From Candidatus Zixiibacteriota bacterium (GTDB taxonomy: Bacteria > Zixibacteria > MSB-5A5 > GN15 > FEB-12): a stretch of 54,591 nucleotides of DNA. Under the pieces are notes generated by a model. It had not been told where the DNA came from, did no database searches, and was given only the letters and a program-made list of their open reading frames with translations. The DNA is taken from NCBI GenBank assembly GCA_020351995.1, contig CP070674.1, positions 448,288 through 502,878 of the forward strand, given 5' to 3'. Position numbers and translations under genes: made by a program. This document shows, in pieces, positions 13,616 to 54,586 of the stretch (position 1 is the first letter of the stretch; the number at the start of each line of letters is the position of its first letter).

Positions 13616-14209
13616 CTATTCACCCAGGCGGAAGCGGGCAAATCGCCTGATTTGAATATTCTCGCCCAGTGAGGCAATCATGTTTTTGACAAACTCCTCG
13701 ACGGTGAGATCGTTGTCTTTCACGTAGGGCTGTTCCAGAAGGACTACCTCCGCGAAGCACTTTTCCAGCTTACCGTCAACGATTTTGTCTATTATTTTTT
13801 CCGGCTTGCCTTCGTTGATGGCCTGCTGCCGGTATATATCTTTTTCTTTGCCGATCAGTTTCTCGTCAAGCTCGTCTCTTTTCACACAAAGCGGGCTCGA
13901 GGCCGCAATATGCATCGCAATATCACGCGAGAAAGCCTTGAAATTGTCGGTCCGGGCCACAAAGTCGGTCTCGCAATTTATCTCGACCATGACACCGAGC
14001 TTATCGCCGGTGTGAACATAGGTCGCGATGGCACCTTCGGCCGTGCGCCGACCCTCTTTAGACGACGCTTTGGCGATACCCTGCTCGCGTAGGTGCTCCG
14101 CGGCTTTATCGAAGTCTCCCCTGGTTGCCGTGAGAGCTTTTTTACAATCCATCATTCCGGCCCCGGTCTTTTCCCGGAGCTCTTTTACCATCTGTGCTGT
14201 AATCTCCAT
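13616..14209 (-). CDS. tsf: Elongation factor Ts (short form)
   Basis: Nucleotide-exchange factor for EF-Tu. The N-terminal UBA-like domain starts [26 protein letters not shown], followed by [29 protein letters not shown] and the core domain ending LLEQPYVKD. At 197 residues it is much shorter than the E. coli protein (about 283). It lacks the second half of the duplicated core, like the short EF-Ts of Thermus-type bacteria. Short forms usually act as dimers. It ends in TAG, which shows that UAG is a functional stop here. It follows rpsB by 18 bases. Confidence 0.96.
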
Positions 14210-14227: not shown

Positions 14228-15010
14228 TTACTTTTTCTCTTTCGTGTCGTCTTCAGTTGAAGTGGTATATGTGGTCAATTGCGTTTCACGGTCCCCTTCC
14301 ACAGCCGCTTCGATCATCTCCGGCGAGACGCCGTGCTTTGCCTCAACGGCCGCGTCGACCAGGTGCTTTACCAGTACCCGTATCGACTTGATAGCGTCGT
14401 CGTTGCCGGCAATCGGGAAATCAATCGGATCAGGATCAGCGTTGGTATCGACGATACCAATAATCGGAATTTTCAATTTGGCCGCCTCGGCCACCGCGAT
14501 CTTCTCCTTGCGGGCATCAACCACGATAACCAGTCCGGGAAGGAAGTTCATCTCCTTGATACCGCCAAGAACCTTGGTGAGTTTTTCGGCTTCGTTCTCG
14601 AACTGGGCACGCTCCTTCTTGGTGAATTTTTCCAGCGTGCCGTCTTCCTTCATCCGCTCAATATCTTTGAGCTTCTTAATAGAGTTCTTTATGGTATTGA
14701 AATTAGTCAACATGCCGCCCAGCCAGCGCTCGGTGACATAGAAAGCACTGCAACGGGCAGCTTCTTCTACGAGCACCTCCCGCGCCTGCTTCTTGGTGCC
14801 GACAAAGAGAATCGAGCGGCCTTTGCCGATTACTTCGCGCACCTTGTGCTTGGCTTGCTCCAGAGCGTCGAGCGTCTTGTGAAGATCGATGATGTAAATG
14901 CCGTTGCGGGCGCCAAAAATGAAGGGTTTCATTTTGGGGTTCTAGCGGCGGGTCTGATGACCGAAATGGACCCCGGCTTCAAGTAGTTCTTTGATTTGAG
15001 GTGAAATCAT
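14228..15010 (-). CDS. rpsB: 30S ribosomal protein S2, interrupted by an in-frame amber codon
   Basis: S2 binds the 30S head-body junction and is essential. From the ATG at 15010 the frame reads [22 protein letters not shown], then TAG at 14944-14942, then [20 protein letters not shown] and the rest of S2 to a TAA at 14228. The TAG sits exactly where S2 has Trp (TRRWNPKM), one G-to-A change from TGG. The only ATG after it in the conserved region is at 14932, which would give a 234-residue protein missing 26 N-terminal residues. An AAGG ribosome site precedes 15010. A consensus error, suppression or a real mutation are all possible. The C-terminal tail is acidic and variable, as usual. Confidence 0.9.
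14942..14944 (-). other. In-frame TAG codon inside rpsB
   Basis: Codon 23 of rpsB reads TAG on the minus strand, between CGC CGC and AAC CCC AAA ATG. Flanking codons on both sides encode fully conserved S2 residues in one frame, so there is no frameshift, only the stop. Confidence 0.95.
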
Positions 15011-15110
15011 CGCAACCTTAAGATTAAACGGTTATTCTTTACCCCGGCTTCCACTCTGCTTGAGCCCGAAGATGTGGGACCCTCAAACAGATCGACCGGG
15101 ACTGTTTATT

Positions 15111-44051: not shown

Positions 44052-44125
44052 CGGGGTGTGGCGCAGTCTGGCAGCGCGCTTGCTTTGGGAGCAAGATGTC
44101 GGAGGTTCAAATCCTCTCACCCCGA
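44052..44125 (+). tRNA. tRNA-Pro (anticodon TGG), intact copy
   Basis: 74-nt cloverleaf. Acceptor CGGGGTG/CACCCCG, discriminator A; D stem GCGC/GCGC with A14 present; anticodon stem CTTGC/GCAAG around TTTGGGA, giving TGG; T arm GGAGGTTCAAATCCTCT. CCA is not encoded. It has a strong promoter and is the left border of the region that ends with a second, altered copy. Confidence 0.96.
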
Positions 44126-47033: not shown

Positions 47034-47107
47034 CGGGGTGTGGTGCTGTCTGGCAGCGCGCTTGCTTTGGGAGCAAGATGTCGGAGGTTCAAATCCTCTC
47101 ACCCCGA
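47034..47107 (+). tRNA. tRNA-Pro (TGG) second copy, altered D arm, probably a pseudo-tRNA or attachment-site remnant
   Basis: Differs from the copy at 44052 only in the D arm: position 11 C to T (G-U pair) and A14 to T. A14 pairs with U8 in nearly all tRNAs, so folding is likely impaired. The anticodon TGG, T arm and acceptor are intact. No promoter like the one before copy 1 is seen upstream. CCA is not encoded. Confidence 0.8.
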
Positions 47108-49582: not shown

Positions 49583-49645
49583 GCCGTGACTGTTGTCCCG
49601 GCTCTCAATATACCAGAGTTGCCTTATAGAAAGAGCCTCAAGAAA

Positions 49646-50800
49646 ATGAAGAAGACAATTAGTATTTGGTCGATAAGCCTGCTGTTAATGATCTATCTAA
49701 CGGGCGCCGCCATTTCTTCCTCATCGCAGGACTCCGAGCAGGACGCCACTCGGCCACCCTGTAGCGACTGTCACGTGTGTGAGTCACCCTCGACGGCCGA
49801 TCCGTGTTTGGAATTATGCCTGTGGACGAAAACCGAGGCGACAAAAGGACATAGTGCTGCCGAGGGCCCTGAGGTTGCAATGCTAGATGAATTAGAGGAG
49901 TTGTATGGCCCCGTGAAGTTCAATCACAAGCTTCACGCCGAGATGGTCGGCATGGGTGAGGGTTGCTCTGTGTGTCACCATTACAGTCCCCCGGGTAGAA
50001 TACCGCCCTGTAGTGAATGCCATGGTGACGAACCCAGTGAGCCGCAAACACTACGTAAGCCGGGTTTAAAAGGTGCCTTTCACCGTCAGTGTATGGGGTG
50101 TCACCGGGAATGGAGTCATGACACCAAATGTATCGTCTGTCACCTGCCCGCCAACGGCGTCGACCTTACGACCTCGGGTATCGACTCGACGGACATTCTG
50201 GGTATTTCCCACCCGGTTATAACGGTCCCCGAGATGAGGATCTGGACCACACCTTACACCGCCGGCCCACTGGTGACATTTCATCATCAAGAACACATCG
50301 ATTTGTTCGGACTGCGCTGTGTTGACTGTCACCAGCAGGAAAACTGCAGCTACTGTCACGACCTGGAGAAAGACCCGGCTGCCCATAAGACAGACGAAGA
50401 AATACACGCTATTTGTAATGATTGTCACGCATCGGACGCCTGCGACAAGTGCCACGGTGTTGGCGAAAAACCGGCTTTTACACATGGCGGTAACGGTCAC
50501 TGGGAACTGAACCGATTCCATCAAGGTTTGTCCTGCCGTGCTTGCCACCCGACCGGCAGGAAAATTGGTAAATTGAGCAATAAGTGTTCCGACTGCCACG
50601 GTGGCTGGAGCCAGCAGAACTTTCGCCACAGCATAACCGGGCTCCAGCTTGACGAGGCTCACGGTGAGTTTGATTGCATCGACTGTCACAAGAACCTTAT
50701 GTACAGCAGGATACCGCGGTGTTACGATTGTCATGATGACTGTCGTAACCATGAGGATGCTCCTCCAGGGGAGTATATCCAGAGAGCGTCTGTCAGATAG
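49646..50800 (+). CDS. 13-haem cytochrome c, copy 1
   Basis: 384 residues from the ATG at 49646. A signal peptide (MKKTISIWSISLLLMIYLTG) is followed by 13 CxxCH motifs: CSDCH (residues 39-43), CSVCH, CSECH, CMGCH, CIVCH, CVDCH, CSYCH, CNDCH, CDKCH, CRACH, CSDCH, CIDCH and CYDCH. The first motif is embedded in a Cys-rich box, CSDCHVCESPSTADPCLELC, with three further Cys. Many extra His (HKLHAEM, FHHQEHIDLF) could be distal ligands. It is periplasmic and probably the electron-exchange partner of the ferredoxin/NrfD pair. Upstream in-frame codons to 49586 lack a signal-like character. Confidence 0.93.
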   Translation: MKKTISIWSISLLLMIYLTGAAISSSSQDSEQDATRPPCSDCHVCESPSTADPCLELCLWTKTEATKGHSAAEGPEVAMLDELEELYGPVKFNHKLHAEMVGMGEGCSVCHHYSPPGRIPPCSECHGDEPSEPQTLRKPGLKGAFHRQCMGCHREWSHDTKCIVCHLPANGVDLTTSGIDSTDILGISHPVITVPEMRIWTTPYTAGPLVTFHHQEHIDLFGLRCVDCHQQENCSYCHDLEKDPAAHKTDEEIHAICNDCHASDACDKCHGVGEKPAFTHGGNGHWELNRFHQGLSCRACHPTGRKIGKLSNKCSDCHGGWSQQNFRHSITGLQLDEAHGEFDCIDCHKNLMYSRIPRCYDCHDDCRNHEDAPPGEYIQRASVR

Positions 50801-51028: not shown

Positions 51029-51096
51029 ATTCGGGAGGGGTTGCTTCGGGGCAACGGGATGATCAGAGTTGACTTTAATAAATGGAGCTTCAAAGG

Positions 51097-52251
51097 ATGA
51101 ACAGGAATCTTGGCAATTGGTGTATAAGCGTACTGTTGCTGTTGTTAATAACTTACATGCCGTGTTTTGGGCAGTCTCAGGATCGTTCCGTTCCCGACGC
51201 TACCCAACCACCTTGCAGTGACTGTCACGTTTGCGAAACACCCACGAAAAGCAACCCCTGCCTTGAGATGTGCGCTCGCACAGGAGCTATGCCGGCCGAC
51301 CTACATAAGCCTTCCGAGGGACCCGGGGTCAGGGTTATCGATGAATTATCAGATCTATACGCACCGGTTGATTTCAACCACAAGCTTCACGCGGAAATGG
51401 TAGAAATGGGCGAAGGTTGTTCCGTTTGCCACCATTACAGCCCGCCCGGAAAGTTTCCTCCCTGCAATGACTGCCATACCGACGAGTCTACGGAACCACA
51501 GACACTACGCAAGCCGGGTCTCAAGGGGGCCTACCACCGGCAGTGCATGGGATGCCACCGTGAATGGAGTCATGACACCAAGTGCATAATCTGCCACCTT
51601 CCCACCAACGGTTATGATCTTTCCGGAGCACCGCTGGATTCTACCGATATCCTTGGTATTTCGCACCCGGTAATCACCGTTCCGGATAAAAAGGTCTGGA
51701 CCACACCGTACCAGGCAGGCCCGGTAGTTACATTCCACCACCAGGAACATATCGATCTGTTCGAGTTACGCTGCGTGGACTGTCACAAACACGAGAATTG
51801 CAGTTATTGTCACGACTTGCGGAAAGAATACAGCCCGCGCAAGACCGACGAAGAGATTCATGCCATATGCAATGATTGTCATGCCCAGGACGAGTGCGGC
51901 AAATGTCACGGCACGAAAGAAAAACCGGCCTTTGTGCATGCCGCCGACGGCAGTTGGGCCCTGAACCGGTTTCATGCAGAATTGAGTTGTCGCGCCTGCC
52001 ACCCAACCGGCAAAAAAATCAGCAAGCTTGACCACCAGTGCACGAATTGCCATGGCGGCTGGAACCAGAAAAATTTCCGCCACGCTGTAACCGGGCTGCA
52101 ACTGGACGAAATCCATGCTGAACTCGAATGCAGCGACTGTCACGTTGATAGCGCTTTCGATGCCCCGCCCGATTGTTCCGGATGCCACGATGATGGCCGG
52201 TCACCGAAGGATGCCCCGCCCGGCCATTATGTTCAGGCGGCTTCGAAATAA
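51097..52251 (+). CDS. 13-haem cytochrome c, copy 2
   Basis: 384 residues, the same length as copy 1. The ATG at 51097 has GGAG about eight bases upstream; the ATG at 51082 has none. Signal peptide MNRNLGNWCISVLLLLLITY. Thirteen CxxCH motifs in the same order: CSDCH, CSVCH, CNDCH, CMGCH, CIICH, CVDCH, CSYCH, CNDCH, CGKCH, CRACH, CTNCH, CSDCH, CSGCH. The Cys-rich box CSDCHVCETPTKSNPCLEMC is kept. The core (TLRKPGLKGAYHRQCMGCHR, STDILGISHPVITVP) is close to identical; termini differ. A strong terminator follows. Confidence 0.93.
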   Translation: MNRNLGNWCISVLLLLLITYMPCFGQSQDRSVPDATQPPCSDCHVCETPTKSNPCLEMCARTGAMPADLHKPSEGPGVRVIDELSDLYAPVDFNHKLHAEMVEMGEGCSVCHHYSPPGKFPPCNDCHTDESTEPQTLRKPGLKGAYHRQCMGCHREWSHDTKCIICHLPTNGYDLSGAPLDSTDILGISHPVITVPDKKVWTTPYQAGPVVTFHHQEHIDLFELRCVDCHKHENCSYCHDLRKEYSPRKTDEEIHAICNDCHAQDECGKCHGTKEKPAFVHAADGSWALNRFHAELSCRACHPTGKKISKLDHQCTNCHGGWNQKNFRHAVTGLQLDEIHAELECSDCHVDSAFDAPPDCSGCHDDGRSPKDAPPGHYVQAASK

Positions 52252-54509: not shown

Positions 54510-54586
54510 GCCCCCGTAGCTCATCCGGATAGAGCATCTGCCTTCTAAGCAGAGGGTACCAGGTTCGAGTCCTGGCGGGGGTACCA
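54510..54586 (+). tRNA. tRNA-Arg (anticodon TCT) with encoded CCA
   Basis: Cloverleaf with acceptor GCCCCCG/CGGGGGT (G-U at the first pair), D arm GCTCATCCGGATAGAGC, anticodon stem TCTGC/GCAGA around CTTCTAA, giving TCT, and T arm CCAGGTTCGAGTCCTGG. Discriminator A and CCA (54584-54586) are encoded, unlike the other four tRNAs in the window. Confidence 0.95.

Follow-up and report, generated by a model that had tools for sequence, protein, structure and literature searches.

The analyzed window, a stretch of 54,591 nucleotides spanning positions 448288 to 502878 of the genome, carries on its minus strand the rpsB gene, encoding ribosomal protein S2, with tsf as its operon partner. The features relevant to this analysis are as follows.

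14228..15010, minus strand: rpsB, 30S ribosomal protein S2 (uS2), 260 codons with one internal TAG read through
15016..15019, minus strand: AAGG, a weak Shine-Dalgarno-like motif ahead of the normal rpsB start, read from the sequence
14945..15010, minus strand: codons 1 to 22 of rpsB, including a 10-residue stretch and the zinc ligand His18, with the same amino acids as in both sister species
14942..14944, minus strand: in-frame TAG, codon 23 of rpsB, which is TGG (Trp) in every other S2 locus compared
14930..14932, minus strand: ATG, codon 27, the sole near downstream restart, with no Shine-Dalgarno-like sequence ahead (CGCCGCTAGAACCCCAAAATG)
13616..14209, minus strand: tsf (EF-Ts), intact, the next operon gene after rpsB, 82 to 88% identical to its counterparts in sister genomes

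The forward strand reads CTA at 14942-14944, which places a TAG in frame within rpsB on the minus strand; apart from this codon (codon 23; 14944-14942), the gene is a single open frame. When the TAG is read as Trp, the product is a 260-amino-acid S2 that scores 337.2 bits on the TIGR01011 profile (rpsB_bact), thereby passing the curated cutoff of 76.3 bits. By the standard code, the conserved N-terminal block of 14 residues is interrupted by the TAG at codon 23 and is not contained in one protein. The read-through product thus resembles an ordinary full-length bacterial S2 (uS2, TIGR01011), 86 to 88% identical to S2 of the same genus and followed by tsf as usual in the rpsB-tsf operon, whose gene order is kept in three sister genomes; it differs in that codon 23 alone is TAG instead of TGG. 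A genome-wide search for S2 recovered one rpsB only, with exactly one internal stop, this TAG. Because rpsB is single copy, supply of S2 from an intact second copy is ruled out, and that candidate was rejected.

Comparison with relatives bore out the sequence-only reading that a single rpsB frame carries TAG in place of a conserved Trp codon. TGG occupies codon 23 in each of the 109 other S2 loci (110 aligned loci, including that of the window), a set made up of 29 loci from relatives and 80 from a contig collection, with some genomes possibly present in both. S2 was found in 93 of the 98 genomes searched, and an internal TAG occurs only in the window's own. Two S2 genes among the 98 relatives have one TAA each; in the one that was aligned, codon 23 is TGG. 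Within the genus, TGG is also seen in the two genomes with sequence at this codon, and the surrounding bases are nearly the same (GTCGCTGGAACCCC versus GCCGCTAGAACCCC); a third genome (G002) has a run of N over it. The inspection of rpsB in sister genomes that had been proposed as a test for an error therefore returned TGG, and the change is missing from the closest relatives, as it is from all other loci.

The codons flanking the TAG have retained their coding constraint. Codons 1 to 22 differ from those of sister genome G001 by 5 synonymous and 0 nonsynonymous changes and from those of G003 by 8 and 0 (13 versus 0 over both sisters), and codons 27 to 254 show 44 synonymous and 1 nonsynonymous private changes at sites where both sisters agree. 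These counts indicate that full-length S2 was selected up to very recently, with strong purifying selection acting both before and after the TAG codon. Such constraint is compatible with an error, a stray allele or a very young mutation, but not with an S2 that has long started at codon 27.

Initiation downstream of the stop was one of the options raised in the sequence-only reading, which correctly stated that a start at the ATG at 14932-14930 (codon 27) would drop 26 residues. In such a scenario, the TAG would be real and recent; ribosomes would stop at codon 23, and some would restart at the ATG four codons on; the resulting S2, shorter by 26 residues at its N terminus, would suffice, possibly at some cost to growth. 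In principle such a restart could occur, as 9 bases lie between the TAG and the in-frame ATG, and restarts after nonsense codons at such a distance are known in bacteria. Without these residues, S2 still reaches 286.8 bits on TIGR01011, and local RNA folding is ordinary, with a stability around the TAG not above that of shuffled sequence (z, -0.60). Against this scenario, no Shine-Dalgarno sequence precedes the ATG, and the Met at codon 27, shared by all 110 S2 loci, cannot be taken as evidence of start use. Furthermore, the alignments of all 110 loci begin no later than residue 8, and the part that would be lost contains the conserved 14-residue block, with G13, F16, G17 and H18, invariant in 110 of 110 loci, as well as the near-invariant H15, T20 and R22. 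Had codons 1 to 22 long been dispensable, they should have drifted, and no drift is seen. S2 of Escherichia coli binds zinc through His18, Asp188, Asp204 and Asp205 (PMC4288201). The same residues occur at the same numbers in the read-through S2 described here, so a shortened protein would lose the ligand His18 while its three partners are all kept. E. coli ribosomes without S2 are also without S1 (PMC3296737). Loss of residues 1 to 26 would probably damage S2 function severely, and restart at codon 27 appears decidedly improbable.

A second reading in which the TAG is real has it decoded as an amino acid, either because a suppressor tRNA exists or because readthrough is programmed. Amber suppression would indeed place an amino acid at the UAG of rpsB, as exemplified by E. 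coli su7, a tRNA-Trp carrying a CTA anticodon. The intact and conserved frame on both sides of the stop is consistent with this possibility, and efficient readthrough would also fit the pattern of constraint on S2; the tRNA and release factor complements speak against it. Among the 43 tRNA genes found in the genome, whose anticodons were read, none has CTA, and the single tRNA-Trp has CCA, unlike su7. A pattern search for a CTA anticodon arm followed by a T arm returned ten places, all of them known tRNAs or non-tRNA sequences; the suppressor tRNA for which a search had been suggested was thus not found by either route. However, tRNA-Asp(GTC), tRNA-Ile(GAT), tRNA-Ala(TGC) and tRNA-Leu(TAA) are missing from the same 43 matches, though all are needed, and probably lie in assembly gaps or were overlooked by the search. 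The tRNA set is therefore incomplete, and a CTA tRNA could likewise be hidden.

The use of UAG as a stop is normal in this genome. RF1 is uninterrupted (513 bits on TIGR00019), as is a second, RF2-like match. In the stretches taken for genome-wide comparisons (∼1.27 Mb, about a third of the 3,608,951-base genome, which forms one sequence record), 176 of 622 frames of at least 300 codons end in TAG (about 28%), much like the sister stretches, in which TAG ends 36 of 116 and 30 of 136 long frames. A second stop within 10 codons downstream follows 33% of TAG stops, compared with 36 and 39% of TAA and TGA stops, respectively. Besides that of rpsB, no in-frame UAG was found in conserved genes among 126 compared frames, and no other TAG replaces a conserved Trp among 366 Trp codons compared. 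A coding-score scan for stop-split genes over ∼1.05 Mb, which is blind to early stops such as that of rpsB, gave 38 same-frame junctions, 18 of them TAG. These 18 and a few others, translated and judged by eye, looked like ordinary gene ends followed by the next gene start, or shadow frames. With RF1 intact, TAG use normal and other in-frame TAGs lacking, recoding of UAG was rejected, in agreement with the claim, made from the window alone, that UAG is not generally recoded; the confirmation extends to about a third of the genome, RF1 and the tRNAs. Neither a CTA tRNA nor loss of RF1 nor depletion of UAG as a stop was found, and decoding of the rpsB TAG as an amino acid is highly unlikely.

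The quality of the assembly bears on the remaining readings. Gaps between contigs are filled with exactly 100 N each (30 such gaps in 1.05 Mb), and the window (1-54591; genome 448288-502878) corresponds to exactly one contig with a 100-N run at each end, the TAG being well within it and away from its edges. The genome is most likely a metagenome assembly of joined contigs. Comparison with G001 covered 126 frames and 43,682 codons, with 340 conserved Trp codons matched, and revealed no frameshift. Seven stops were recorded in this comparison, and only that of rpsB lies inside a conserved core, the rest being located before a likely true start or in shadow frames; in-frame stops within conserved cores thus amount to 1 per 43,682 compared codons. 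The outcome was the same with 84 frames compared to G003, i.e., the rpsB stop alone in a conserved core and no frameshift. Private amino acid changes number 623 in the window's genome versus 702 in the sister G001, with no excess. An error-rich contig with frameshifts was rejected, as no frameshift was found. Systematic miscalling of a modified motif, with CCAG turned into CTAG here and elsewhere, is scarcely credible: CTAG occurs 0.52 times per kb in the fetched part of the genome versus 0.28 to 0.31 in sister stretches (both strands counted), but in matched regions this difference is mostly gone (0.24 per kb in the window; 0.15 and 0.25 per kb in the sisters). Among 21,095 compared codons, a CTAG is created by only 2 private amino acid substitutions, and this candidate was rejected for want of an excess of CTAG-making changes. 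Neither these changes in matched regions nor the private changes as a whole gave any sign of systematic miscalling.

The TAG is thus most probably a consensus error affecting one base or a defective allele that the assembler retained. A G-to-A substitution on the coding strand would have entered the consensus of one contig of this Zixibacteria metagenome assembly, either through a sequencing or assembly error or from a defective allele carried by a minority of the sampled DNA, and the living organism would not be using an S2 gene with this TAG. The observations behind this interpretation are the position of the TAG and the lack of any other of its kind, ordinary termination at UAG, purifying selection before and after the codon, and an assembly joined by N runs; the reads would then be predicted to show TGG at codon 23. 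The change resembles other single-base errors or stray alleles in metagenome-assembled genomes in being an isolated substitution that is not found in relatives and lies in an essential gene that is otherwise intact. It differs from them in that the rest of the contig is clean; the absence of frameshifts, of excess private amino acid changes and of excess CTAG-making changes in the consensus is a point against an error, as is the location of the TAG away from the contig edges. For consensus sequences, an error rate near one in 100,000 bases is typical; a genome this large would then be expected to contain about one nonsense error, so a single substitution error is nevertheless unsurprising. A literature search returned nothing useful on amber codons in rpsB or on stops caused by consensus errors in such assemblies. 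The sequence-only reading had left three options without choosing among them: the error is the best supported, whereas the suppressor tRNA found no support and the internal start is contradicted by conservation and by the missing Shine-Dalgarno sequence. That the lineage truly lives with an amber codon in its sole rpsB, by restart at codon 27 or by means of a suppressor tRNA whose gene lies in an assembly gap, is unlikely. A real TAG would mean that synthesis of a core ribosomal protein passes through a nonsense codon, a highly unusual situation. The case cautions that, in a metagenome assembly, an essential gene can seem broken because of a single wrong or stray base; comparison within the genus, together with a check of tRNAs and RF1, tells which reading is likelier.

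Other features of the contig were recorded alongside this analysis. It ends directly after a tRNA-Arg(TCT) gene (window positions 54510-54586), and a second tRNA-Arg(TCT) at genome positions 1712089-1712162 has a stretch of at least 28 bases in common with it; this shared repeat may have ended the contig. Two tRNA-Pro(TGG) genes (window positions 44052-44125 and 47034-47107) lie 3 kb apart, and one stretch of G001 matches both. Finally, the adjoining genes at window positions 49640-50797 and 51085-52245 are paralogous, and two adjoining genes of G003 match both, with 62 to 66% identity.
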